A DNA stretch of 44,725 bases from NCBI GenBank assembly GCA_902773325.1, contig CACYDW010000068.1, positions 1 through 44,725 of the forward strand, given 5' to 3'. The stretch is from an uncultured Ruminococcus sp. GTDB taxonomy: Bacteria > Bacillota > Clostridia > Oscillospirales > Acutalibacteraceae. This document shows, one piece after another, positions 186 to 19,432 of the stretch (position 1 is its first letter; each line of letters starts with the position of its first letter). A program made the translations under genes and the position numbers. A model generated the notes under the pieces. It did no database searches. It was not told the DNA's origin and saw only the letters and a program-made list of their open reading frames with translations.

Positions 186-445
186 TTTGCCGGATCATTA
201 CTCCGGGAAAATATGCCGGTTCATCAGGCAGAATACAAAGGTATCCTCTGTGCTGCCAACGCTCGATATCAACAGACCACTGTTGTTTCCGGCGCGGCAT
301 AGCAGTGATCTCCCATACTCAGAGCGATAGCTCGGTTGTATAGAAGCATAGGTCAGATCCTGCTGTCCGACCTGCATAGAAGAGGGGAGTTCTCTATGGT
401 GCTGAGCGAAAACGCGAACAAGGGTGCAGCGCCGTTGCGCTGCCT
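186..445 (+). ncRNA. candidate structured non-coding RNA (unidentified)
   Basis: There is no convincing gene here, but the stretch is dense in hairpins. TATGCCG at 212-218 pairs with CGGCATA at 295-301 and encloses GGCAG/CTGCC (227-231/253-257) and CAACAG/CTGTTG (270-275/280-285). Further along are GAGC-GATA-GCTC near 322-333, AGGTC/GACCT (350-354/369-373) and GCAGCGC-CGTT-GCGCTGC (426-443). The GATA loop is of GNRA type only when read on the plus strand, which favours that strand. I compared it by eye with RNase P, tmRNA, SRP RNA and 6S RNA and could not match any. No poly-T terminator was seen, so the 3' end is a guess. Confidence 0.35.
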
Positions 446-473
446 TGACAGAGATGGGATTATCTGATATATT
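445..473 (+). promoter_or_regulatory. sigma-A promoter of the B12 operon
   Basis: A perfect -35 TTGACA (445-450), a 17-base spacer and a -10 TATATT (468-473) place the transcription start near 480, just upstream of the cobalamin riboswitch. Confidence 0.75.
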
Positions 474-499
474 TATGTAAAAGAATATAATCGGCATAC

Positions 500-674
500 G
501 GTTCGAGGATTATATAGGATAATCGGGTAGGTAATTGGGAATTTGGTGAAAATCCAAAGCAACTGTCATTACCGTGACTGACAGCTTTGTCAGAAGTCGG
601 AATACTCCCGTGTGCTGAGGTAGTGCAAGCTTGGACAAAGAAGAAGTGCAGCCGATTTTACATACGGGTAAGGT
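500..674 (+). promoter_or_regulatory. cobalamin (vitamin B12) riboswitch
   Basis: The stretch carries the conserved core of the cobalamin riboswitch. At 537-555 is GGGAATTTGGTGAAAATCC, matching the GGGAA...GGTGAAAAUCC consensus around P3/P4, followed by CAACTGTCATTACC and, at 595-606, the 3' core AGTCGGAATACT. It lies between a sigma-A promoter and an intrinsic terminator at 675-697, 0.2 to 0.3 kb before the first gene. The downstream genes encode DUF4430 (transcobalamin-like) proteins and an ECF transporter, as expected of a B12 regulon. Boundaries are approximate. Repression by adenosyl- or methylcobalamin is the usual mode in this family and is inferred here. Confidence 0.85.
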
Positions 675-697
675 GTCGCTGTTTGAGCGACGTTTTG
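675..697 (+). terminator. riboswitch expression-platform terminator
   Basis: GTCGCT (675-680), loop GTTTG and AGCGAC (686-691) are followed by GTTTTGCT. The six-pair stem with a short T tract sits right after the aptamer, so ligand-dependent transcription termination is likely. The stem is short and the T tract is interrupted by one G. Confidence 0.6.
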
Positions 698-822
698 CTA
701 TATGTCTGTGTCGATGTGCGCTTTTTCGGTACAGATGATTTTGTTGTGTCAAATCAGTTGTGCTTTCTTTGTAATATAACAGGGAAAGCATTTTTTATTT
801 TGAAAAGAGCCGGAGAAAAGCT

Positions 823-1122
823 ATGGAACAGAACGAAAAAGCCGATTATGCCAGAAAGCTTTTGCAGCAAAAAGCTGAGGAACTGGGCAGACTTCCTAAA
901 AAGAGCGATTTTTCACCCGAAACAGTCTGTATGATCAAGCAGAAGTTGGGACCATGGCCTCGTGCATTGGAGGCGGCTGAGCTTAAAGAGCCGCCTTTGG
1001 TTTCTTCCGGAGAAAAAAGCAGGCTTAAACGTGAGCGGCGCAGAAAAATACGCAAGGCTCAGCAGCGAGCCGAAGCAAAAAATGCTTCCTCTGAACAAAA
1101 CAATGGAGGAGATCACAAATGA
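823..1122 (+). CDS. small HNH-repeat-like basic protein, first gene of B12 operon
   Basis: A 99-residue protein, starting after a CCGGAGAAA ribosome binding site. Residues about 19-56 (LGRLPKKSDF ... LGPWPRALEAAEL) resemble the homing-endonuclease-associated repeat (HNH_repeat, PF18780), a small helical motif thought to contact DNA. The tail (about 65-99) is very basic, with RLKRERRRKIRKAQQR, and could bind nucleic acid. No nuclease motif is present. Its stop overlaps the start of the next gene (ATGA), so the two are translationally coupled and share riboswitch control. The role in B12 uptake is unknown. It may be a regulator or simply a co-transcribed conserved protein. Confidence 0.7.
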   Translation: MEQNEKADYARKLLQQKAEELGRLPKKSDFSPETVCMIKQKLGPWPRALEAAELKEPPLVSSGEKSRLKRERRRKIRKAQQRAEAKNASSEQNNGGDHK

Positions 1123-3257
1123 AAAGAAAAGGAAAGCTGTTATCTTGTTGCCTTGCAAGCACTTTGCTGTTTTCGGCAATACCGATGTATGTCAGTGCTG
1201 AAAGCAATTACGGTAAAGTGAGGGTCACGGTAGAGAATCATACCCTTTCAATGGAAAATGGCGCAGCATGGGAGGGCGTATTGCTTGATGAGTGGGTCGA
1301 GCTTGGCGCAGATTCCGACGGTATATCGGTTCTGGTGGACGCATTGAATCATCACAGCATGACGCAGCAGGGCGCAGAATCTGCTTATATTACAGAAATC
1401 AACGGACTTTCGGCAGAAGACGGCGGCTCTATGGGCGGCTGGATGGTTACACTTGACAACTGGATCACAGATGAAATGATCTCTGCCTATACCGTCAGCT
1501 CCGGTAAGCTTGAAAACGGTGATGAGCTGCGTTTTATCTATTCTTGTGCGTGGGGCGCAGATATCGGTTATGACTGGTCCGGTACAGATACATCGCTGTC
1601 TGCCATCACGTTCAGTGACGGTGAACTGACACCGTCATTTACTCCCGACAACCGTTCCTATACGCTGACTCTTGAAGAAAATACGGATGCCGTCACCGTA
1701 TCACCCGCAGCGGTCAATCTGGCATACAGGGTCAAAACCTATAAGAATACCTATACTCCGGCCGAAGCAGGAACGGATTTCAAACTCAGTGAGAGCATTC
1801 CGGTGTCTGACGGTGATGTGATCATTATCGGTGTAGCCAATGAAGCGTGGATGTCCTATGTACCGGATGGTGTTAGTGAATCGGTCTATCAGATCACGAT
1901 CAATCAGCCTGCTGCCCAAGTTGATACCGATGTTCAGCAGACGGAGAGCCTGATTGCCGCTATCGGCGAGGTCAATACATCCGGCAAACCTCTCATTGAA
2001 CGTGCAAGAGCTGCTTATGATGCACTTTCCGAGGAACAGCAGTCACAGGTGTCCAATTATGATATCCTTTTGCGCGCTGAATCGGATTATGCAGCCCTGA
2101 CTGCCGGTTCGGACGACAGCGTTCCAACGGTTTCCGAGCTGCGTACAGCTTATGCTGCATCTGTGCCCGCTGTACTGGGGTTTGGCAGCGAATGGGATAT
2201 GATCACCCTTGCCCGTTTCGGACTTGTTACAGATACACTTAAAAACGGTTATGTAAAAAGCGTCAAGGAAACCCTTGATACCATCGGAAGTTCCAAACTC
2301 AGCAGTACACGTTCAACGACCAACGCAGGTGTTGTTGCCGCCTTGACGGCTCTCGGGGCAGATGCTTCTGATTTTTACGGATATGACCTGACAGAACCTT
2401 TAGGCGATATAGAATATGTGACAAAACAGGGCATCAATGGCGCTGTTTATGCGCTGATTGCTCTGGACTGCGGAAAATATCAGCTCAAAAACAGTCCCGA
2501 AATCAGACAGAAGCTGATATCCGCTATTCTTGCTGCCCAACAAACAGACAACGGCTGGACGATCGATCCCGAAAGTACCTCCGATGCAGATGTTACTGCT
2601 ATGGCAGTTACAGCACTTGCGCCGTATTACACTTCCGATCAGACCGTAAAGGATGCCGTTGACAAGGCACTCGTATTCCTCAGTGACAATCAGAATGACG
2701 ATGGACAGTTTGCTTCTTACGGTTCCTATGACAGTGAAAGCTGTGCACAGGTGCTGATCGCGCTTACATCACTCGGGATCGATCCTTATGAAGATCCACG
2801 TTTTATTAAGAACGGTCACAATGCCTATGACGGCTTAATGCGCTTTTATCACGCAGATAATAACGGCTTTGCGCACCTTACAAACGGTGATTCCAACGCT
2901 ATTTCAACTTATCAGGCATATTCAGCCGTTTGTGCGCTGTATCGCTATGAGAATCATCTGACCGCTTTCTACAATATGGACGATACCTCCCTCGAGGTTT
3001 ATTCTTCTGCCGCTCGTGAGCCGGACAACAGCAGTAAGCCCGATAGCAGCGAAACTGCGGGGCAAGCTTCTGCCCCTGTGTCCGAAAAATCCGACACAGC
3101 CGATCAAACACAGCAATCCTCTGTATCGGAAGCAGGAGCATCAGAGAATAATACAGTCAATACAGGTGAAAGCAGCTTTGCTGTAGCATTTCTGATGATG
3201 TCCGTGCTTTCTGCCTGTGCGGCAGTTCTCGCACTGCGCCGTACAAAAGAACAATAA
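1119..3257 (+). CDS. transcobalamin-like cell-surface corrinoid-binding protein (DUF4430 + alpha/alpha toroid)
   Basis: A 712-residue secreted protein. Domains in order: signal peptide (1-28, ending VSA); a DUF4430 domain, the fold of the transcobalamin C-terminal domain (about 30-150, with GGWMVTLDNW and the ending GDELRFIYSCAWGADIG); a cadherin-like beta sandwich (about 155-260, SLSAITFSDGELTPSF); a short helical linker; and a prenyltransferase/squalene-cyclase-type alpha/alpha toroid (about 340-610, with repeat cores such as DADVTAMAVTALAPYY and DSESCAQVLIALTSLG). A Ser/Gln-rich linker leads to a sortase-like tail: VNTGES, a hydrophobic segment and RRTKEQ. Toroid plus DUF4430 are the two halves of mammalian intrinsic factor and transcobalamin, here in reverse order. 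Riboswitch control and the adjacent ECF transporter argue for capture of cobalamin at the cell surface. Ligand binding is inferred. Confidence 0.82.
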   Translation: MKRKGKLLSCCLASTLLFSAIPMYVSAESNYGKVRVTVENHTLSMENGAAWEGVLLDEWVELGADSDGISVLVDALNHHSMTQQGAESAYITEINGLSAEDGGSMGGWMVTLDNWITDEMISAYTVSSGKLENGDELRFIYSCAWGADIGYDWSGTDTSLSAITFSDGELTPSFTPDNRSYTLTLEENTDAVTVSPAAVNLAYRVKTYKNTYTPAEAGTDFKLSESIPVSDGDVIIIGVANEAWMSYVPDGVSESVYQITINQPAAQVDTDVQQTESLIAAIGEVNTSGKPLIERARAAYDALSEEQQSQVSNYDILLRAESDYAALTAGSDDSVPTVSELRTAYAASVPAVLGFGSEWDMITLARFGLVTDTLKNGYVKSVKETLDTIGSSKLSSTRSTTNAGVVAALTALGADASDFYGYDLTEPLGDIEYVTKQGINGAVYALIALDCGKYQLKNSPEIRQKLISAILAAQQTDNGWTIDPESTSDADVTAMAVTALAPYYTSDQTVKDAVDKALVFLSDNQNDDGQFASYGSYDSESCAQVLIALTSLGIDPYEDPRFIKNGHNAYDGLMRFYHADNNGFAHLTNGDSNAISTYQAYSAVCALYRYENHLTAFYNMDDTSLEVYSSAAREPDNSSKPDSSETAGQASAPVSEKSDTADQTQQSSVSEAGASENNTVNTGESSFAVAFLMMSVLSACAAVLALRRTKEQ

Positions 3258-3344
3258 TAAACTCCTTTTTGAAAAAGAAAAGCAGAAACATCGATCATTA
3301 AAATGATCAAATGAGGTATGATCTGTACGGAGGAGGGATGAGAA

Positions 3345-4277
3345 GTGCAGTTTTTGAAGAAGTACCCAAGGCATATAGCTGCGGCAGCGGTAATAGTTGT
3401 CGTGCTGGTGCTGGCATTTGTGCTGGCGGATGACCCTGCTGTGATGCCTGTGACGCAGAAATCAGATGAAGCAGTATGGCAGTCTGCACCCGCAGTCAGC
3501 AGCCATACTGCCGAAGAAAGCACTGCTGCGGAGAGTACCGTGCATTGTGCATCTGATGAGAGCAGCAAGGATGTTTCTTATGAGCAATCTGCAAATGCCG
3601 CCGCAGATGTATCACAGGACAGTTCACAGAGCAAAAGTGCAGTCACACAACAGGATATGCCGGAATCCGTTTCATCTGCCGAACCGCATCAAAGCGGCGG
3701 TACTGTGTCAGAAGCTGCGTCCTCCGTCAGTATGGAGTATGAATCATCGGCTGGATCGCCTGTATCACAGCCCTCAGCCCCGGAGCAGCCGGATACTCAG
3801 CCGCAGGAAATTCCCGAATCACAGTCTGACACCACACCTCCATCTGCATCGGAAAGCGACAGTACGGATACTGAAAGCCTGCATTGTGCAGTTACGATTT
3901 CATGCGCGGTGCTTGTCGGTCAGACCGACAGACTCAGCAAAAACAAGCAGTCGCTTGTTCCGGCAGACGGTATCATTTTGTCCGAACCGTATACAGAATA
4001 CAGCGAAGGAGAAACGGTTTTCGATGTTACCAAACGGCTGTGTATCAGTGCGGGAATACCGTTTGAATTCACACTCACCCCTGTTTACAACACGGTTTAT
4101 ATCGAGGGAATATATAATCTTTATGAGTTTGACTGCGGCAGCGGTTCGGGCTGGGTTTACAGTGTCAACGGTGTGTTTCCGTCCTGCGGCTGTTCCGATT
4201 ATAAGCTGTCCGATGGTGATGAGATCATCTGGCACTATACCTGTAATATGGGCAGAGATGTAGGGAATACCAATTGA
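3345..4277 (+). CDS. membrane-tethered DUF4430 (transcobalamin C-terminal-like) protein
   Basis: A 310-residue protein starting at GTG, with GGAGGAGGG about ten bases upstream. The N terminus is basic (QFLKKYPRH) and then forms one hydrophobic segment (about 10-28), an uncleaved anchor or signal. Residues 35-175 are a low-complexity Ser/Glu/Pro linker. Residues about 185-310 form a DUF4430 domain with GETVFDVTKRL, SGSGWVYSVNG and GDEIIWHYTCNMGRDVG. The linker could hold the binding domain within the wall, close to the ECF transporter encoded just downstream, and pass cobalamin on from the larger surface protein. That hand-over is inference. It lies in the same operon, 87 bases after the toroid gene. 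Confidence 0.78.
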   Translation: MQFLKKYPRHIAAAAVIVVVLVLAFVLADDPAVMPVTQKSDEAVWQSAPAVSSHTAEESTAAESTVHCASDESSKDVSYEQSANAAADVSQDSSQSKSAVTQQDMPESVSSAEPHQSGGTVSEAASSVSMEYESSAGSPVSQPSAPEQPDTQPQEIPESQSDTTPPSASESDSTDTESLHCAVTISCAVLVGQTDRLSKNKQSLVPADGIILSEPYTEYSEGETVFDVTKRLCISAGIPFEFTLTPVYNTVYIEGIYNLYEFDCGSGSGWVYSVNGVFPSCGCSDYKLSDGDEIIWHYTCNMGRDVGNTN

Positions 4278-4308
4278 GGTGCGGGATTTTGTGGAGGCAG
4301 GTGAGAGG

Positions 4309-5199
4309 ATGAACGGCTCTTTTGCGAGGTATCACCCGGTCGTACAGTTTTTGTTTTTCTTTTCGGTAATGCTGTTTGCCATGACAATTTCGGAGCCGGT
4401 CTGTCTGATCATTTCTTTTCTTCCCGCTCTGACTTATATGATATTCCTCGGCGGCAGAAGAGCTTTGACCACAGTGTTCAAATACATTCTGCCGATGTTC
4501 CTGTTTATCGGTGTGATGAATCCGCTTTTCAATCACGGCGGCATGACGATCATAGGGTATCTGCCGAGCGGCAATCCCTTTACGCTCGAATCGCTGCTCT
4601 ATGGTATTGCCGCAGGACTGATGTTTTCAACGATCCTTTTGTGGTGTGCGTGTTTGCGGCGAATCATGACCTCCGATCGGGTCATCTATCTCTTCGGAAA
4701 AGCGGCACCAAGACTCAGTCTGCTGATTTCTATGATACTGCGCTTTATTCCGAGGATTGCGGATTATACCCGTCAGCTTCGTGCAGCGCAAAAATGTATC
4801 GGGCGGGATATGACGGACGGAAACCTGATCACGCGTTTCCGTAATACCGTGAGGATTATTTCCTGCCTGATTCAATGGGTACTCGAAAACTCTATAGATA
4901 CCGCCGATGAATTGAAAAGCAAGGGCTATGGACTACCTCACAGAACCTCCTTTTCGCTGTTTGACTTTACGCTGCGTGACGGTGTGCTATGCGGATTTAT
5001 ATTGCTTTGTGATGCTGTGGTCGGCTGGGGAATGATGAGCGGGGCAGCGGAGTTTTATTATTTTCCTGTTGTGTCGGAAATAACGGGTGGAACGGTACAG
5101 ATCGTTCTGTATGCATTTTATTTACTGCTGTGTATCATGCCGATCATGCTTGAAGCGGAGGAGGGAATCAGATGGCACTATATACGCTCAGGAATGTAA
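4309..5199 (+). CDS. ecfT: ECF transporter transmembrane (T) component
   Basis: A 296-residue integral membrane protein of the CbiQ/EcfT family, with hydrophobic segments between about 10-125 and again at 215-285. The cytoplasmic coupling region has RAAQKCIGRD and ADELKSKGYG, counterparts of the two Ala-Arg-Gly-like helices that dock into the ATPases. I chose ATG 4309 because GGAGGCAGGTGAGAGG lies directly before it. A GTG at 4279 would add ten residues but lacks a good site. The end overlaps the next gene by 28 bases, so translation is coupled. It links ATP hydrolysis to movement of the S component, here predicted to carry cobalamin. Confidence 0.88.
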   Translation: MNGSFARYHPVVQFLFFFSVMLFAMTISEPVCLIISFLPALTYMIFLGGRRALTTVFKYILPMFLFIGVMNPLFNHGGMTIIGYLPSGNPFTLESLLYGIAAGLMFSTILLWCACLRRIMTSDRVIYLFGKAAPRLSLLISMILRFIPRIADYTRQLRAAQKCIGRDMTDGNLITRFRNTVRIISCLIQWVLENSIDTADELKSKGYGLPHRTSFSLFDFTLRDGVLCGFILLCDAVVGWGMMSGAAEFYYFPVVSEITGGTVQIVLYAFYLLLCIMPIMLEAEEGIRWHYIRSGM

Positions 5200-7892
5200 G
5201 CTTTCAATACCCGGATGCAGACAGAAACGCCCTTGATGATATCTCTCTTACGGTGGAAAGCGGTGAATTTATTACTGTATGCGGACTATCAGGCTGCGGC
5301 AAAACAACGCTTTTGCGTTTGCTGAAGCCCTGCATCAGTCCTCACGGAAAAACAAACGGAACGATCATGTATAATGATCAGCCGCTTGCTTCCGTGCCGC
5401 TTGTCGTGCAGGTGTCTGATATTGGTTATGTGACGCAATCGCCCGATAACCGTTCCATTACCGATAAGGTGTGGCACGAGCTTGCCTTCGGGTTGGAAAG
5501 CTTAGGACTTTCCAACGCTGTTATCCGCCGGAGAACAGCGGAAACAGCAGCATTTTTTGGTATCGAGGATCTGTTCGATCAGGATGTGGCTGCCCTCTCA
5601 GGTGGACAGAAGCAGCTTGTAAGCCTTGCTTCGGTGGTAGTGATGCAGCCGTCTGTGATACTTCTGGACGAACCCTGTGCCCAGCTTGACCCGGTTGCGT
5701 CAGAGGAGCTGCTGAATATGCTCAGAAAAATCAATACGGAGCTGGGGATTACGGTTATTATGAGTGAACACCAGTTGGATGAGGTGTTTTCCATCAGCGA
5801 CCGTGTGCTTGTTATGGAGAACGGCAGTGTCATTGCAGATACAAGACCGTCAGAGGCTGCCAATATGCTCTATAGCACAAAAAGTCCTGTTTTTGAATCG
5901 TTGCCTCTGCCCTCAAGGGTATTTGCGTATGCAGGCGGTCAGGGAGCTTCTCCTGTTTCCGTAGCACAGGGCAGAGAATGGCTCAGGGAATATATCTCCG
6001 GCAGGCTCCTACGACCGCTTTCAACGCGGCAGCAACTCCATTGTGCCGGTAAGCCCTGCATGGAACTGAAAAACATCTGGTTCCGATACGACAAAAAGCT
6101 GCCGGATGTGTTGTGCGGCGTTGACCTGCCGGTTTACAGCGGACAGATACTCGCTGTACTCGGGGGCAATGGTGCCGGAAAGTCCACTCTTTTATCTGTG
6201 ATGTCAGGCGGTGTAAAGCCGTACAGGGGCAGTATCAGACTGAATGGAAAAACAGCGGCAGTCAACAGACCCTATGAGCAGGGCATTGCGATGCTGCCGC
6301 AGAATCCGCAGGCTTTGTTCGTAAAATCAACGGTAGAGTCCGACCTCTATGAGATTTTTTTGGGAATGAAGCTTGATGCCGCCGAACAGAAAGAAAGAGT
6401 AGAGGAGGTTGTTGACCTGTGCGGGCTGAAAGATTTGTGCTTCCGTCACCCGTTTGATCTTTCCGGCGGTGAACAGCAGAGAGCGGCACTTGCAAAGGTT
6501 CTTCTGACAAAGCCGAAATTCCTGCTGCTTGATGAGCCGACAAAAGGGCTTGATGCCGCATTCAGGAAAAGACTTGCAGCGATTTTAGCCCGATTGAAAT
6601 CAGAAGGACTCACGATCATTCTGGTAAGCCATGATCTCACGTTTTGTGCCGAAAATGCCGACCGATGTGTAATGCTGTTTCGTGGGGCAGTGATCTCAGA
6701 CAGTGAGCCGCACAGCTTCTTTACGCAGAATAGTATTTATACTACCGCTGTGAACCGCATGACACGGGGCATTATAAACGGTACGGCAACAGAAGCAGAG
6801 CTTTTGCAGACACTTGATATCCGTCCGCAAATTATTTTGCCTGACCATGCGGAAAAGTCCGGACAAAAAAAGGAAACCCCGCATGACGATGATACAGCCT
6901 TTCCGCCTGACGGTGACAGTCAGCAGTCTGTATCACCGAATAACAATATCTTTTCGGCGAAAACACCAAACGGACATCCGAAAAAAATCATCAGGGCAGC
7001 CGCACTTCTTCTGCTTTCGGCGGTTTTTTTATTGTCCGTGATGATCACAACAAGAACGCTTACAGCCGATTGGCTGCCCGAAAGCCCCATGACAGCCTAC
7101 CTGACGATGTTTTTATCATCCATATCGATCATTCTGCTATGGGGAGGAAAACAGCAGGAAATCCCGATCGTACGCTCTCAGAAAAGCAGGATACGCAGTG
7201 CTGTATCAGTCGTGCTGATATTGATCATTGTTCCGATAACCATATTTGCCGGTGTTGTTTTGTTTGATGATACCAAATATCTGTTTATTTCGCTGCTTAT
7301 CATGCTTGAAAGTGTCATACCGTTTTTCATGATGTTCGAGAGACGCGGTATACAAGCCCGCGAGCTGGTTCTGATTGCTGCGCTGTGTGCCATGTGTACA
7401 GCGGGCAGGGCGGTACTCTATATGCTGCCGGAGCTGAAACCCGTAACGGCACTTGTAACCGTATCTGCCGTTGCACTGGGCAGTGAAACAGGCTTTCTGA
7501 TCGGTTCGGTTTCAATGCTTGCTTCCAACATTTTTTTCGGTCAGGGAGTCTGGACACCGTGGCAGATGTTTGCAATGGGTCTTGTCGGATTTTTGGGAGG
7601 AACACTGTTTCACATCGGCATGATTCCTCGTACAAAAGCGACAATTTCTGCTTTTGGTTTTTGTGCAGCACTTTTTTACGGAGGAATCATGAATCCCGCA
7701 TCGCTGATTCTATCCCGTTCACCGATTACCGCAGAAGGTCTTTTGTCCTGTTATGCACTCGGTCTTCCGCTGGATATGGTTCATGCTGTATCGACTGCCG
7801 TATTCTTATATATTGGTGCAGAGCCGATCCTCTCGAAGCTGGAGCGCATCAAAAGAAAGTACGGTATCGGTGTTGCAGACCCGTGTGATTGA
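5172..7892 (+). CDS. ECF transporter A1-A2-S fusion, predicted cobalamin-specific
   Basis: A 906-residue fusion of three subunits that are usually separate. ATPase 1: Walker A GLSGCGKTT (38-46), signature LSGGQ (142-146), Walker B VILLDEP (162-168). ATPase 2: Walker A GNGAGKST (332-339), signature LSGGE (430-434), Walker B LLLDEP (451-456). After a charged linker (about 545-610) comes a membrane part (about 615-890) ending in an S component with RAVLYMLPELKPVTALV and FFGQGVWTPWQMFAMG, which resembles the CbrT-type cobalamin S family. Both ATPases keep all their motifs and should be active. The riboswitch and DUF4430 partners support cobalamin as substrate. ATG follows GGAGGAGGGAATCAG. Confidence 0.85.
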   Translation: MALYTLRNVSFQYPDADRNALDDISLTVESGEFITVCGLSGCGKTTLLRLLKPCISPHGKTNGTIMYNDQPLASVPLVVQVSDIGYVTQSPDNRSITDKVWHELAFGLESLGLSNAVIRRRTAETAAFFGIEDLFDQDVAALSGGQKQLVSLASVVVMQPSVILLDEPCAQLDPVASEELLNMLRKINTELGITVIMSEHQLDEVFSISDRVLVMENGSVIADTRPSEAANMLYSTKSPVFESLPLPSRVFAYAGGQGASPVSVAQGREWLREYISGRLLRPLSTRQQLHCAGKPCMELKNIWFRYDKKLPDVLCGVDLPVYSGQILAVLGGNGAGKSTLLSVMSGGVKPYRGSIRLNGKTAAVNRPYEQGIAMLPQNPQALFVKSTVESDLYEIFLGMKLDAAEQKERVEEVVDLCGLKDLCFRHPFDLSGGEQQRAALAKVLLTKPKFLLLDEPTKGLDAAFRKRLAAILARLKSEGLTIILVSHDLTFCAENADRCVMLFRGAVISDSEPHSFFTQNSIYTTAVNRMTRGIINGTATEAELLQTLDIRPQIILPDHAEKSGQKKETPHDDDTAFPPDGDSQQSVSPNNNIFSAKTPNGHPKKIIRAAALLLLSAVFLLSVMITTRTLTADWLPESPMTAYLTMFLSSISIILLWGGKQQEIPIVRSQKSRIRSAVSVVLILIIVPITIFAGVVLFDDTKYLFISLLIMLESVIPFFMMFERRGIQARELVLIAALCAMCTAGRAVLYMLPELKPVTALVTVSAVALGSETGFLIGSVSMLASNIFFGQGVWTPWQMFAMGLVGFLGGTLFHIGMIPRTKATISAFGFCAALFYGGIMNPASLILSRSPITAEGLLSCYALGLPLDMVHAVSTAVFLYIGAEPILSKLERIKRKYGIGVADPCD

Positions 7893-7988: not shown

Positions 7989-8061
7989 GGGAGCATAGCT
8001 CAGCTGGGAGAGCATCTGCCTTACAAGCAGAGGGTCACAGGTTCGAGCCCTGTTGTTCCCA
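7989..8061 (+). tRNA. tRNA-Val (anticodon TAC)
   Basis: A complete 73-base cloverleaf. Acceptor GGGAGCA pairs with TGTTCCC, with discriminator A at 8061. The D arm has AGCTCAGCTGGGAGAGC, the anticodon loop CTTACAA gives TAC, and the T arm has GGTTCGAGCCC. CCA is not encoded. It has its own promoter and a strong terminator. Confidence 0.96.
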
Positions 8062-8119: not shown

Positions 8120-8149
8120 TTGCAAACCACCGCTTCTTTCTGGTATAAT
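8120..8149 (+). promoter_or_regulatory. sigma-A promoter of recombinase-like gene
   Basis: TTGCAA (8120-8125), 18 bases, TATAAT (8144-8149). An in-frame ATG at 8148 overlaps the -10, so it cannot be the real start; the gene begins at GTG 8187. Confidence 0.7.
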
Positions 8150-8186
8150 GGCATCAGTACTATTCGGTTCGGAAGGAGATGAAACA

Positions 8187-9608
8187 GTGAAAAAACTGAA
8201 CGCGGTAATTTACCTATCCCCTGGAGCTGATCAGGTGTTGCTGACACCCTCTCAGCTTCAGGAGCTAAGAGAGTTTGCTGATGCAAACGGATATTGTGTC
8301 ATTGCGGAGTATAACGCTGACACAGATTTTGCATCACTCCTCACACAGCACAGTGAAACTTCGGATACGTTAGTTCATGATCAGTATGATGCCGTGATCG
8401 TGTGGAATGACAGTTCGCTGGGAAGCAGCAGGCAAGCAGCAGATTATCATAAATATCTGATTTACCGCAGCGGCAGAAGGCTTCTTCGGCTTGATCAGAG
8501 TGACAGCCCCCTGAGTATGGAGAACATGCTGGCAGAGCTGATGAACATCGTCGGTAATGCTTACTGTCAGGAAATGAAAAAAAACATCGGAAGCTGGCAG
8601 TACCAACGGGCGCTGCGGGCAAGACATATAGGTGGCAAGCTTCCTTATGGGTATCGTCTGGGGAGGTCTAATGAATACGTTATCAATATCAATGAGGCTT
8701 ATATTGTCAATTTGATTTTTTCACAATTTGCACAGTACGGCAACCCCGGATTTGTTCTGGAGCAGATCAAAGCTTATATGATGAGCGAGCATTATGAAAA
8801 GACCTTTACCATGGACGAACTGATAAACATTCTGACGGAAGAAAAATACATAGGTACTTATTCCTACAAAAATCTTTTCCGCAAGACAGAGAGTACTCCG
8901 GCGCTTGTCAGCAGACCCATGTATTTCCGTGCCCTCAGACAATACTATACGTTTAAGAAAGAAATTCTGGAGCAATGGAGCTATTCCGATACACTGCTCG
9001 ACGGCAAGCTGTATTGCGGCAAATGCGGTGCACCAATGGCAGCATCGACCTATACGCCTGAAAACCTCGAAGAAGAAGAAAACGGCTACTGCTGCACTTC
9101 GGGTGCTGCTGCAGGATGTTATAACATAACCTCCCGGACAAAATGGCTCGAAGCTTATGTGCTCAATGAGGTTCTCAAACTGTTTGATGACGAAGATGTC
9201 ATTGAATCCGTTGCAGAAAGACTATGGAATCAGTATATAAAGACGTTGAATGCAGAATCACAGTTGAAAGCCCTTGCATCAGAGCGGCAGAATATCAGGA
9301 ATATGAACGAATCATTCTTATATATGACCGGAAGATACAATAAGGATTCCGAACCGATCATGACACGTGAAAGCTTCAGCCTGCTTTTCAATCAGGTCAA
9401 AAGACTGCCGGCAGAGCAGCGCTCTGTGCAGCATCAGTTGATTGACTTGTTTGTAAACTCGGTTTTCATAGAGGACGATTATATCTATATCCGCTTTAAT
9501 TTCAGCGGGGAGAACAGCGAGCATTTTCGCAGCGGAATAACCCCTTACCGCATTATGGAGTATGTTGACGTTTTTGACAGCCACATGGCGAATCTTTTCT
9601 ATGAATAA
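8187..9608 (+). CDS. large serine recombinase-family protein, catalytic residues apparently lost
   Basis: A 473-residue protein starting at GTG 8187, six bases after GGAAGGAGAT. It keeps the architecture of large serine recombinases: resolvase-like domain (1-130), linking helix, recombinase domain (about 140-255, with GGKLPYGYRLG and EEKYIGTYSY), a zinc ribbon (LYCGKCGAPM, then CC and C around 280-320) and a C-terminal helical region. The catalytic motif Tyr-x-Arg-x-Ser is absent: after Tyr9 the expected Arg is Ser11 and the expected nucleophile Ser is Gly13. The usual Asp-Arg-Leu-Ser-Arg is replaced by NDSSLGSSR, and the Asn-Arg-Pro motif is missing. The frame is intact and it has its own promoter, so it may be a domesticated DNA-binding protein rather than debris. 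It sits next to tRNA-Val, but no element boundaries were seen. Confidence 0.8.
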   Translation: MKKLNAVIYLSPGADQVLLTPSQLQELREFADANGYCVIAEYNADTDFASLLTQHSETSDTLVHDQYDAVIVWNDSSLGSSRQAADYHKYLIYRSGRRLLRLDQSDSPLSMENMLAELMNIVGNAYCQEMKKNIGSWQYQRALRARHIGGKLPYGYRLGRSNEYVININEAYIVNLIFSQFAQYGNPGFVLEQIKAYMMSEHYEKTFTMDELINILTEEKYIGTYSYKNLFRKTESTPALVSRPMYFRALRQYYTFKKEILEQWSYSDTLLDGKLYCGKCGAPMAASTYTPENLEEEENGYCCTSGAAAGCYNITSRTKWLEAYVLNEVLKLFDDEDVIESVAERLWNQYIKTLNAESQLKALASERQNIRNMNESFLYMTGRYNKDSEPIMTRESFSLLFNQVKRLPAEQRSVQHQLIDLFVNSVFIEDDYIYIRFNFSGENSEHFRSGITPYRIMEYVDVFDSHMANLFYE

Positions 9609-15547: not shown

Positions 15548-18500
15548 ATGTCGGAATCCAAAGAAAAACCATATTCTGATACCCCCTCCCGCGATCAGAC
15601 TGAAAAGACGGCTGAAAACACCGAACGATCTACAGAAGATATGGATGACAGCTTTTTTGCCGATCAGGAACAGGATGTTCCGGAAATATCCGAAACGACT
15701 GCGTATGACAGCTCCGAAAAATCCGCGGATTCCGCACAGCCTTCCAAAGGATTTCTGAATCGGTTCAAGTCGGGATTTCAGTCTGTCGTTTCCGCTTTGA
15801 AGCAGCCGGATGATGTAGAGCCTGATGACGAATATGACACCGATGAAACCGATGAAACCGAAGATGTATTGTCGTTGACCTCTGTTTTTGCCCGCAGCAA
15901 GCATACAGCTTTTGGCGATGAAGCAATGCAGGATCAGACGATCTATTCTGCCGATAGTCCGGCAAAGCCGCAGCCGACCACAGAAACACCCGTATCTCAG
16001 TTTGCATCGTCTGACGGCAGAATCGTATCAGAGCAGAGCAAAAACCGCTATAAAAGCGCACCGGGACCGAAATCAATGCCCCCAAAAACACCCTTTCCGG
16101 TAATAAGCCAACAGTCTGATGAACAGAAGAATCATAAGACCGTTTTGTCGGGTGTAACACATACGGCTTCCTCCGATGTGCAGCCGTCAGAGAAGCAAAA
16201 CTCCTTCCGGGAAAACGTGTATGAACCCGAAATCACTGTACAAGTACCAACGCATGACACCGAAACTGTGGAACAAGTGGCAGCGCATGAATCCGTACTC
16301 AATGTACAAGCAGTATCCACAGCTTCAAAGCCCGCTGTACAGGAGCAAAGTCCTGCACCGGAAGCTGTTTCTACAGAGGTTCAGCCTGTGACGGAGGAGC
16401 GGATAGCCAATTCCGGTGTGATCTATCAGTCGGAAAAGCCGCCGCAGGAGGAAAAGTCCGAAGAACCTCCCATCAACAGCACGAAAAGTATCAGTGCATC
16501 GGACATTCTTAGTGCCATACACAACGCTTCTCCGGATTCCTCTAATGAACGTATAAAACAGACTGTTCCGGGAAAGAACGCGGTATCCGGTTCAGAAGCT
16601 TCTGATGCCGGGAGTGTTCCTGTAACAAAAACCGTACCCTTTATCATGCCTTTTGAAGCGCAGAGTAACGGTGTATCGGATAAGCCGACACAACAGCCTG
16701 TACGAAAGGTTCATGAACTGCCTGCATTTGATATTTTTTCTGATAAGTCCTTTATAAGCAAAAAAAGCACCGCGGATAAGAAAAATCCGGCTTCAGCGAA
16801 AGATCGGGGTGGAGGTTCTGTTGCTCCGGAGCGTGCAGAATCCGAACCGACAGCGAAAGCAGCACCTGCCGCACCTGAACCGACAGTGAAAGCAGTGCCT
16901 GCCGCACCTGAACCGACAGCGAAAGCAGCACCTGCCGCACCTGAACCGACAGTGAAAGCAGCACCTGCCGTACCCGGATCGACAGCAAAATCAGCACCTG
17001 CCGTACCCGAACCGACACCGAAAGCAGCACATGAACCGGTCGATTCGGAGGGGAAAAACTTTACGGAAGGGCGCTATCCCGGACTCACTTATCATGCAAG
17101 CGACCTGACGCCGTTTGTTGTGATGGCAGGCAAGTTTACCGAGAGTGTTCGCGGAGAATATAATGCCATCAGACTTTATAAAAAATCCCTCCAAAAGCCG
17201 ATAGAGCAGTCTCATGCCGGGGAAAGCAAGCCATCAGGGGCAAAAGCAGTAACTCAGAAAGCTGCATCTTCCGATAAGCCCGCAGCATCCGAAAAGAATT
17301 CTCATGCTGCTCCCGGAGCATTGCCGAAACAAACGGATATATCCAAAAAAAGTGAGCTTTCTGCACCCGCACCCCGACCGGTGATCCGCTTCCCGGGTAC
17401 ACAGCATTCCGTTACTATTAACCCGCCTGTAAAAGACGTTTCGGCGCAGTCTGATACTGCTCCTGTTTCTGATAACACCAAACCTAAAAAAGCGGCAGAA
17501 GCGTCAAAGGCTGAACCTCCCCAAAAAAAGACGGATTCAAAAAAGAAGCCTGTGGCAAAAAAAGCTGTTTCAAAAAAATCCGGCAAAACACCGAATGTCA
17601 AAAAGAACAAAAAGCCGCTCAAAGCGCGTATTGCCTTTTTCTTCGGCACGGACGAGGAATTTGATCCCGACGATAATGTAGCAGAAGAAATCAGTGACCT
17701 GCTCCAGATCGATGATTATAGTGACGAAGAGGACGCAGCAACGATCAGGAGTGAGCTTACCGCGAGCCTCAGTTCCATCTCCTTCCGTACGATTCTCCTG
17801 TTGATTTCAGCAGCTTTTTCAGTAATACTTGCTATCGTATCACAGGCAACACCTCTGTTCCGGGAAACCATTCATAACGGCTGGCTTGTGTATGCCCTGA
17901 TTTGTTTTGCGCTCTTTACGGCATCTGTCGTTATTTCCAGAAGGACGATCGTCAACGGACTGATGCCGCTGATCCGCTTCAAGGGTAATTCGGATACAGC
18001 ATTTGCCGTGGCATCACTTGCCTGCGGGGTTCAGTCGATCACATCGGTGTTCACCCCCGATAGGTTTATTGACGGCACGATGTATATTTACGTACCGCTC
18101 GTCACTTTTGCACTGTTCCTCAACAGCCTTGGCAAGGTGCTTATTATGCTGCGCACCAACAGTAATTTCCGATATCTGACTAAGACCGGTCAGAAGCACG
18201 TGGGAAAGATCTATACGGATATTCAGAATGCTGAAAAAATGGTAGCCGACCTTCCCTCCAAAAAAAACATTATCGGATATACGAAGCGTACAGGCTTTGT
18301 TACCAATTTTCTGCATCTGTCCTATACGCCCGACCCGAGTGAGGAGTTAGCTGTCAGGATTTCCCCATACATAGCTGTGTTTTCGCTGCTTTGCGGAATT
18401 GTATACGGTGTGATCACGAAGGATATTCCCGGTGCTGCATCAGCATGGGCACTCACAGCCTGTGTGGGTGCACCGGTGGTGTGTCTGCTTGCCGTGAATC

Positions 18501-19432
18501 TGCCGATGTTCCGGCTCTGCGAGCAGGTGATACGCAGGGGCGCAATGATTACCTGCTACGAAACCGTCAGACAGTTCTGTGATACCAATGCTGTTATGAT
18601 CGATTCCTCCCAGCTTTATCCAAAGGGTTCGGTGACCTTTAATGGCATGAAAACCTTCAAGCAGACCAAGCTTGATGATGCGCTGTCCGCTTGTGCTGCA
18701 ATTATGTATGCGGTAAACGGAACGCTGACAGATGTATTTGAGGATATGATACACTTCAACAGGGACAAGCTTCCCAAGGTCGAAAGCGTAATTTATGAGG
18801 ACGGCAGAGGACTTGTAGGCTGGGTAAAGGGCAGCAGAGTGCTGATCGGCAACAGAGAATTGCTTGCAGCACATAATATCACTCCGCCCGAACCCGCACT
18901 GGAGGAACGCCACCGTAAAAACGGTTTTGATATCGCATATATTTCCGTCAGCGGTGAACTGATCGCTATGCTGATCCTGAAATATACACCGCGGGCCGAT
19001 ATTGTTCACGAGCTGCGCACACTGGAGGATAACGGTGTCAGCTTTATCATCAGGACTGTTGACCCTAATATCACAAAGGAAGCCGTTGCCGAGAAGTTTT
19101 ACCTTTATCATCGCTGTGTTACCGTCCTTCCCACAGGACTTGGCAATATCTGCCACGAGGTCATGTCCTCAGCCGATGAAAGTACCCGAGCCTACCTTGT
19201 GACCGGCGGCAAGCTGTCGGCATTTGCAAGGGCTGTGTCGGGCTGTATCAGAATGCGGACAAATGTCAGCTTTACGAAGATCATTCAGTCCATCGCCGTT
19301 TTTCTGGGACTGGGGATATTCACGGTGATTTGTTTTGTATCCGGCTTTGAAAAGCTGGGCTGTGTTGAAATACTGATTTATCTTGCATTCTGGGCATCAG
19401 CAGCACTGGGTGTGTCATTGATAATAAAATAA
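15548..19432 (+). CDS. pseudo P-type ATPase with long disordered N-terminal region
   Basis: A 1294-residue membrane protein starting three bases after rlmB. Residues 1 to about 690 are low-complexity Ser/Pro/Ala/Lys-rich sequence with a block of 11-residue repeats (EPTAKAAPAAP type, about 433-495) and a Lys-rich end. From about 740 come pairs of membrane helices, a cytoplasmic loop, more helices, then a part that follows heavy-metal P-type ATPases: ILIGNRELLAAHNI-like N domain (Gly1101-Asn1102), GELIAMLIL and a final helix pair. The motifs needed for catalysis are altered. The phosphorylation motif DKTGT reads DSSQL (Asp1019), TGD reads TVD (Asp1172), and no GDGxND was found. Pumping activity is therefore unlikely, and a sensor, scaffold or regulator role is possible. 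The family assignment rests on my reading of these motifs. Confidence 0.65.
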   Translation: MSESKEKPYSDTPSRDQTEKTAENTERSTEDMDDSFFADQEQDVPEISETTAYDSSEKSADSAQPSKGFLNRFKSGFQSVVSALKQPDDVEPDDEYDTDETDETEDVLSLTSVFARSKHTAFGDEAMQDQTIYSADSPAKPQPTTETPVSQFASSDGRIVSEQSKNRYKSAPGPKSMPPKTPFPVISQQSDEQKNHKTVLSGVTHTASSDVQPSEKQNSFRENVYEPEITVQVPTHDTETVEQVAAHESVLNVQAVSTASKPAVQEQSPAPEAVSTEVQPVTEERIANSGVIYQSEKPPQEEKSEEPPINSTKSISASDILSAIHNASPDSSNERIKQTVPGKNAVSGSEASDAGSVPVTKTVPFIMPFEAQSNGVSDKPTQQPVRKVHELPAFDIFSDKSFISKKSTADKKNPASAKDRGGGSVAPERAESEPTAKAAPAAPEPTVKAVPAAPEPTAKAAPAAPEPTVKAAPAVPGSTAKSAPAVPEPTPKAAHEPVDSEGKNFTEGRYPGLTYHASDLTPFVVMAGKFTESVRGEYNAIRLYKKSLQKPIEQSHAGESKPSGAKAVTQKAASSDKPAASEKNSHAAPGALPKQTDISKKSELSAPAPRPVIRFPGTQHSVTINPPVKDVSAQSDTAPVSDNTKPKKAAEASKAEPPQKKTDSKKKPVAKKAVSKKSGKTPNVKKNKKPLKARIAFFFGTDEEFDPDDNVAEEISDLLQIDDYSDEEDAATIRSELTASLSSISFRTILLLISAAFSVILAIVSQATPLFRETIHNGWLVYALICFALFTASVVISRRTIVNGLMPLIRFKGNSDTAFAVASLACGVQSITSVFTPDRFIDGTMYIYVPLVTFALFLNSLGKVLIMLRTNSNFRYLTKTGQKHVGKIYTDIQNAEKMVADLPSKKNIIGYTKRTGFVTNFLHLSYTPDPSEELAVRISPYIAVFSLLCGIVYGVITKDIPGAASAWALTACVGAPVVCLLAVNLPMFRLCEQVIRRGAMITCYETVRQFCDTNAVMIDSSQLYPKGSVTFNGMKTFKQTKLDDALSACAAIMYAVNGTLTDVFEDMIHFNRDKLPKVESVIYEDGRGLVGWVKGSRVLIGNRELLAAHNITPPEPALEERHRKNGFDIAYISVSGELIAMLILKYTPRADIVHELRTLEDNGVSFIIRTVDPNITKEAVAEKFYLYHRCVTVLPTGLGNICHEVMSSADESTRAYLVTGGKLSAFARAVSGCIRMRTNVSFTKIIQSIAVFLGLGIFTVICFVSGFEKLGCVEILIYLAFWASAALGVSLIIK
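16844..17036 (+). repeat. 33-base tandem repeats inside the pseudo-ATPase gene
   Basis: About five to six copies of a 33-base unit encode EPTAKAAPAAP-like elevens, with small changes between copies. This is a Pro/Ala-rich spacer and a likely site of length variation between strains. Confidence 0.85.

Follow-up and report, generated by a model that had tools for sequence, protein, structure and literature searches.

What is the role of a five-gene operon in which a leader resembling a cobalamin riboswitch stands before two predicted surface proteins with transcobalamin-like domains and the genes of an energy-coupling factor (ECF) importer? The operon is carried by an uncultured Ruminococcus sp. 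of the Acutalibacteraceae (assembly GCA_902773325.1), on contig CACYDW010000068.1, of which positions 1 to 44,725 of the forward strand were analyzed (44,725 nucleotides, hereafter the window, to which all positions refer). A cobamide capture-import operon is the most likely answer, because the leader, the match of the S component to CbrT, the transcobalamin fold of a surface domain, the gene content of the host and a survey of related loci all point to it. In full, this is very probably an operon that cobalamin represses and that serves a probable B12 auxotroph in the surface capture and import of cobamides. A previous sequence-only reading, made with no database searches, had proposed a riboswitch-controlled B12 capture and import module at this place. 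The features on which the argument turns are the following.

445-473, plus strand: sigma-A type promoter, TTGACA-17-TATATT with TG before the second hexamer, 11 of 12 consensus matches
482-626, plus strand: short cobalamin riboswitch aptamer, RF00174 24.1 bits, E 5e-4
633-659, plus strand: antiterminator 5' arm (arm A), pairs with 751-772, pairing in 9 of 9 leaders
751-772, plus strand: antiterminator 3' arm, overlaps the 5' side of the terminator
760-797, plus strand: intrinsic terminator, 13-pair stem and T run
823-1122, plus strand: first gene, HNH-repeat (homing-endonuclease-associated repeat) protein, 99 amino acids (aa), PF18780 E 2.5e-10
1119-3257, plus strand: 712-aa surface protein with DUF4430, Cadherin-like and toroid parts, signal peptide and VxTG-type sorting signal by eye
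1332-1541, plus strand: DUF4430 domain of the 712-aa protein, PF14478 32.7 bits, cut-off 23.8
2151-2993, plus strand: alpha/alpha toroid of the 712-aa protein, limits approximate, PF00432 28.1 bits, cut-off 26.5, helices in the model
3150-3254, plus strand: sortase-type signal by eye, NTVNTG motif, hydrophobic stretch and basic tail
3345-4277, plus strand: 310-aa protein, N-terminal membrane helix, stalk and DUF4430, PF14478 68.7 bits, cut-off 23.8, and model
3876-4250, plus strand: DUF4430 (transcobalamin beta-like) domain of the 310-aa protein, top PDB fold 5no0
4279-5199, plus strand: EcfT (CbiQ family) transmembrane subunit, PF02361 31.1 bits, cut-off 25
5172-7892, plus strand: EcfA1-EcfA2-S fusion, 906 aa, two ABC_tran stretches and S component
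7347-7865, plus strand: CbrT-like S domain, only PDB sequence match at E ≤ 1 is 6fnp_A, E 1.4e-12

Together with its leader the operon occupies 445-7892. The five genes are tightly packed on the plus strand: two junctions overlap, by 4 and 28 bases, and the other two leave 87 and 1 bases between genes. In gene order, Pfam finds HNH_repeat; DUF4430, Cadherin-like and a Prenyltrans toroid; DUF4430; CbiQ; and, in the protein that also holds the S component, two ABC_tran stretches. The assignment of the first gene as an HNH-repeat protein (PF18780) corrects the one made from the letters.

The leader holds two mutually exclusive folds. Both the terminator hairpin and the antiterminator formed by arm A are found in all nine leaders compared, and the promoter hexamer TTGACA is kept by eye in eight of them, the exception being L006. 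When the second arm is shuffled, no leader gives more than 6 of 500 sequences that pair equally well. When the nine arms are aligned, 94.7% of the cells are paired versus 44-56% when the arms are slid, and seven cells carry a two-sided change; none of 500 shuffles reaches this count, the percentage or the covariation score. Two further measures, three pairs with a two-sided change (99 of 500 shuffles) and 12 further pair types (88 of 500), are ordinary when taken alone. An aptamer match lies shortly before the HNH-repeat gene in each of the eight orthologous leaders, three of them above the RF00174 cut-off (42.8, 38.1 and 31.9 bits) and five below it (31.1, 30.7, 26.3, 26.0 and 24.2 bits). The layout is that of a predicted transcription-attenuating OFF switch, with cobalamin as the putative effector. 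The cobalamin control proposed in the sequence-only reading is supported by the three orthologous leaders of eight that pass RF00174 and by the terminator and antiterminator common to all nine. A mid-leader anti-antiterminator was also considered and dropped, since shuffles matched it 2, 4, 29, 43, 52, 110, 112, 220 and 226 times of 500 in the nine leaders.

The same reading had named conservation of the gene order behind cobalamin riboswitches as a check. Among close relatives, L001, L004, L008 and L009 keep all five genes in this order and the other six of ten loci have parts of the set, and the arrangement is therefore not a product of chance. The 712-aa protein as a whole is less widespread. 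Across 200 genomes of the family, 49 match it at E ≤ 1e-20, mostly in the toroid only, and the near full-length matches are those of the own genome, of G121 from the same genus and of G091, where the protein is in two pieces.

At the level of the class, DUF4430 is present in 133 of 291 genomes. We hand-picked 40 genomes from the listed DUF4430 rows, with a frame of less than ~470 aa and before any riboswitch or ECF search; the closeness of the rows was visible during picking and some qualifying genomes, such as G449 and G388, were left out. One stretch was taken per genome, which gave 40 loci, and with the own genome the 41 genomes fall into 34 genera (four genomes in g157 and four in g195) and are not independent. 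RF00174 matches occur in 39 of the 41 genomes, and in 29 of the 41, versus 0.31 expected, a match lies on the same strand within 8 kb upstream of a listed DUF4430 gene. This count draws on 65 DUF4430 rows of the listing and 119 of the 125 RF00174 rows, the six omitted being sub-cut-off rows (one of which would link G289); the own genome is linked through its sub-cut-off match, and 28 of the 40 other genomes through matches above the cut-off.

The gene set itself recurs as well. DUF4430 stands together with EcfT (T), ATPase (A) and S genes in 32 of the 40 loci. A small DUF4430 gene has T within 1.5 kb in 30 loci, compared with a mean of 4.9 and a maximum of 11 in 200 random placements confined to the same fetched stretches, and under the same control a toroid open reading frame (ORF) lies on the same strand and within the same distance in 31 (mean 6.5, maximum 13). 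A toroid is found in 33 of the 40 loci, on a protein lacking DUF4430 in 25 and fused with DUF4430 in 11, while 18 loci have an A-A-S fusion and 2 have an HNH-repeat gene. By simple rules, the small DUF4430 protein carries a lipobox in 10 loci and an N-terminal membrane helix in 29. Since the profiles were built from the window family, with two lactobacilli added for S and T, they may overlook distant T, S or toroid genes.

The tethered 310-aa protein gives a structural link to B12 carriers. Its model has an N-terminal helix at residues 8-27, a low-confidence (disordered) stalk of ~147 residues at ~28-174 and a well-predicted domain at ~178-302, in which a helix (225-236) is followed by strands at 240-245 and 250-256, a beta-grasp with the hairpin after the helix. 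A Foldseek search of this domain against 350,542 PDB chains returned the human transcobalamin beta domain (5no0) at the top, with a template modeling (TM) score of 0.78-0.79 by target length, and of the 19 chains matched at E ≤ 0.001, 17 belong to transcobalamin, intrinsic factor or haptocorrin and the other two to a Ruminococcus gnavus protein (3u7z). The only two DUF4430 matches of the own genome both lie inside this operon, and their PF14478 scores, above the cut-off, are in line with membership of both proteins in the transcobalamin-like SLBB clade. For the 712-aa protein, T682 and G683 of the sorting motif are invariant across 10 aligned proteins, and the own genome has four sortase-domain matches.

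Several observations weigh against this interpretation. The window aptamer scores 24.1 bits, below the RF00174 gathering score of 31.5, and in it 18 bases replace 71 model positions, with most of RF00174 positions 84-154 missing; of the module first proposed, the promoter, the terminator and the five packed genes stand, and the aptamer taken alone falls short of the Rfam cut-off. Twelve of the 41 genomes have no linked riboswitch, two of these having none at all. The full set is incomplete in 8 of the 40 loci, some of them on short contigs, and the small DUF4430 gene is preceded by a riboswitch, at up to 8 kb, in 23 of the 40; among the 32 full sets this holds for 19. The riboswitch of G305, G250, G215, G351 and G279 precedes another DUF4430 gene, with the ECF set elsewhere, and that of L080 lies between the upstream ECF genes and DUF4430. 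The plasmid loci L072-L075 have no riboswitch at the RF00174 cut-off. A profile of the 310-aa protein run against PDB sequences found no B12 carriers and gave three weak matches in the stalk. The remaining points concern the 712-aa protein (model pLDDT, the predicted local distance difference test, 79.6; pTM, the predicted TM score, 0.48), for which the fold search ranks complement C3, A2ML1 and terpene cyclases above the first transcobalamin; the best 50 also hold macroglobulins and prenyltransferases, with transcobalamin at ranks 15 (E 1.9e-4) and 45, and TM-scores are low throughout. By sequence profile, too, the toroid is nearest to squalene-hopene and related cyclases, not to transcobalamin.

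Because that fold search mixes several toroid families, the toroid alone is unspecific, and one could take the operon and its regulation as described and make the toroid protein an enzyme or adhesin, either terpene-cyclase-like or involved in cell-surface binding, so that only the DUF4430 proteins handle cobamide. The proximity to squalene-hopene and related cyclases favors such a role, and so do the S-layer homology (SLH) domains present on 4 of ten toroid-only proteins that were scanned, none of which carries DUF4430 at E 0.1. A few other toroid proteins end in LPxTG-like C-terminal signals by eye. However, DxDDT, the motif of class II terpene cyclases, is present in 0 of 55 toroid sequences examined, which disfavors an enzyme of that class, and a signal peptide is recognizable by eye in the 712-aa protein. 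The toroid also keeps the company of the small DUF4430 gene in the 31 of 40 loci noted above, far more often than random placement gives, and animal B12 carriers combine just such a toroid and beta domain, as far as the accessible text of the structural report goes (PMC5599065). An enzyme or adhesin is therefore an unlikely identity for the toroid protein, and we retain the capture of cobamides by both surface proteins as the preferred reading.

The importer was examined through its S domain, which as a query of 255 aa has a single match among PDB sequences at E ≤ 1, 6fnp_A (E 1.4e-12), a chain titled 'Membrane protein' in the PDB that we take to be the CbrT structure. With a profile of eight S domains, including two CbrT-like rows from lactobacilli, 6fnp scored 2.7e-21 and the next entry, 4hzu, 0.0019, and with a separate profile, built without such rows from nine S proteins of other families in the class, 6fnp again came first (1.5e-15), a riboflavin S component scoring 0.0019. 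Judged by these comparisons, the S component stands closer to CbrT than to the other S components of known structure. Two proposals of the sequence-only reading are supported, the CbrT-like S component and the DUF4430 domains of transcobalamin type on a wall-type and a membrane-tethered protein (PF14478). EcfT and the two ATPases of a CbrT-type importer are accounted for by CbiQ and the two ABC_tran stretches recognized by Pfam. The one other CbiQ match of the own genome is much stronger and is located elsewhere, so the T-A-A-S set may be a dedicated one.

Instead of complete cobamides, the cargo might be cobalt, or a B12 precursor or other corrinoid (cobinamide). For cobalt there is the membership of EcfT in the CbiQ cobalt family. 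CbiM is the cobalt-type S component, and Pfam reports no S component of this type in the five operon proteins; a cobalt importer was rejected, the S domain matching CbrT. For cobinamide the argument comes from ECF-CbrT of Lactobacillus delbrueckii, whose S component is related to the one described here and for which the available text reports demonstrated uptake of both cobalamin and cobinamide and the use of a common ECF module (PMC5997447); unlike there, T and the A1-A2-S fusion here stand with surface DUF4430 and toroid proteins. Cobinamide could hardly be completed by this bacterium, however, since CobS was not found in its own assembly, and a cargo other than complete cobamides seems to us improbable.

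The gene content of the host fits the import of cobamides. The bacterium's own assembly, of 2.10 Mb and 93.9% complete, gives no match to the B12-synthesis markers CbiC and CobS, to PduO-type and BtuR-type adenosyltransferases or to a FecCD-type (BtuC-type) permease. The same assembly encodes a MetH-like protein with homocysteine methyltransferase, pterin-binding and both B12-binding domains, and a second B12-binding match falls below the cut-off; the enzyme search used PF02310 and covers the B12 enzymes that bear it, a group to which class II ribonucleotide reductase does not belong. From these genes the host is a probable B12 auxotroph. It is very improbable that the surface proteins mainly sequester B12 or strip host carriers with import as a secondary matter, in the way that intrinsic factor loses its B12 to BtuG of Bacteroides by the accessible account (PMC6143338), given the importer in the same operon, the lack of a BtuC-type permease match and the MetH-like B12 enzyme.

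With no adenosyltransferase match in the assembly and a B12 enzyme that is MetH-like, both the cargo and the riboswitch ligand may be methyl- or hydroxocobalamin and not adenosylcobalamin, a weak suggestion that covers PF02310-bearing B12 enzymes only. The same preference is attributed to class IIa cobalamin aptamers in a review, in the part available (PMC11477304), and may extend to the shortened window aptamer, a putative member of that class.

Under the preferred reading, the leader would choose between the antiterminator (633-659 with 751-772) and the terminator (760-791), two pairings supported by their conservation. Intracellular cobalamin would fill the aptamer, favor the terminator and turn the operon off; when cobalamin is scarce, the antiterminator would form and the surface proteins would be made. 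The wall-type 712-aa and tethered 310-aa proteins would then bind cobamide outside the membrane and hand it to the CbrT-like S domain, with EcfT and the two fused ATPases driving import. As the sequence-only reading proposed, this would be a capture relay from surface protein to tethered domain to S component, in that presumed order of hand-over. The locus and its relatives thus offer bounded and testable parts, namely a riboswitch, two predicted surface binders and a CbrT-like importer.

Operons of this kind are already known as a prediction. According to the accessible text of Burroughs et al. 2007 (PMC1796856), a transcobalamin beta domain is joined to Gram-positive surface proteins, toroid fusions occur in both orders, and a second SLBB protein, CbiO and CbiQ are found in the operon; B12 scavenging and a transfer to animals were proposed. 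The present locus resembles these operons of the transcobalamin-like SLBB clade in its surface SLBB protein, toroid fusion, second SLBB protein and CbiO/CbiQ-type genes. Two ideas put forward in the sequence-only reading, scavenging and a reversal of the domain order, are consequently prior art. A riboswitch, a CbrT-type S component and separate neighboring toroid and SLBB proteins are present here and are not part of that account as available, which holds no experiment. Among the entries listed in searches of the openly available literature, with most subscription papers and all preprints outside its scope, there was no experiment on DUF4430/toroid/ECF operons. As far as these entries go, the new points are the links to a riboswitch and to CbrT, the fold match of the tethered protein and the frequent split between toroid and membrane-tethered DUF4430 protein (25 of 40 loci).

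A closely similar described system is on a plasmid. The transporter of Lactobacillus plantarum pMF1298-5 (L074) has been named CbrV-CbrU-CbrT, by the accessible part of the source (PMC6722938), and its cluster has the order T - AA - S - toroid-like - DUF4430. It shares with the window T, fused ATPases, a CbrT-like S component, a toroid-like protein and DUF4430, and differs in having no riboswitch at the cut-off, another gene order and an unfused S component. A Latilactobacillus curvatus plasmid has the order LPxTG protein - DUF4430 - T - AA - S. The toroids of the lactobacillus plasmids score 105 and 52 bits with our own profile, and Pfam finds none at E 0.01.

Human transcobalamin and intrinsic factor (5no0, 5np4) likewise consist of a toroid (alpha) and a beta-grasp (beta) domain. 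Unlike human transcobalamin, the system described here has wall and membrane anchors, a reversed order in the 712-aa protein and a second beta-like domain on another protein. The alpha and beta parts of human transcobalamin, when made separately, assemble only with cobalamin, as stated in the available text (PMC5599065), and by analogy the cargo may draw toroid and DUF4430 together where the two stand on separate proteins. A bolder version, which we hold to be possible but on balance doubtful, is that many bacteria of the class and some lactobacilli have a split transcobalamin, in which a wall or S-layer toroid and a membrane DUF4430 protein would close only around a cobamide, the cargo bridging wall and membrane before its delivery to a CbrT-like S component, and of which animal transcobalamin would be a fused and secreted descendant. 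The 712-aa protein with its own DUF4430 would then be a fused form, accompanied by a second beta half. This opens a test of the proposal by Burroughs et al. that animal B12 carriers derive from a capture device of bacteria, and of whether that device was in two pieces.

Two further loci show other arrangements of these parts. In Vescimonas fastidiosa (L075, 7746-12468) a protein with DUF4430 and Cadherin-like domains adjoins a separate toroid protein, like the 712-aa protein in two pieces, and in the actinobacterium Collinsella aerofaciens (L073, 3384-8234) two DUF4430 genes are adjacent, with no annotated ECF genes in the 16-kb stretch. RtpR is a B12-dependent ribonucleotide reductase. In L. 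rhamnosus a DUF4430 gene adjoins rtpR, by the accessible text (PMC9963975).

Surface capture for a transporter has other precedents. BtuG is an unrelated beta-propeller. In logic alone, it shares surface capture for a transporter with the present operon, in the Gram-negative outer membrane setting of BtuG-BtuB of Bacteroides as available (PMC6143338). In a Firmicute, Eubacterium siraeum, BtuH is a predicted B12-binding surface protein encoded near an ECF-like cobamide transporter, and the available text of that source describes cobamide acquisition in Firmicutes as little known (PMC8941943). BtuH is assigned to another protein family.

The HNH-repeat protein encoded by the first gene shares 56-67% identity with its counterparts in relatives and has a tblastn match in 8 of 10 relative loci; HNH-repeat genes also stand upstream of DUF4430 genes in L081 and L110, which belong to other families. 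It is possibly a small DNA-binding regulator.

Further along the window, a 1294-aa ORF at 15548-19432 has zero Pfam matches at E ≤ 1e-5. Closer to the operon, a minus-strand transfer RNA (tRNA) match at 1-82, cut off by the start of the window, precedes it and a tRNA gene at 7989-8061 lies 3' of it, so that the operon sits between two tRNA genes. The latter is followed at 8148-9608 by a serine recombinase with Recombinase and zinc-ribbon domains, an arrangement that resembles the edge of an integrative element.

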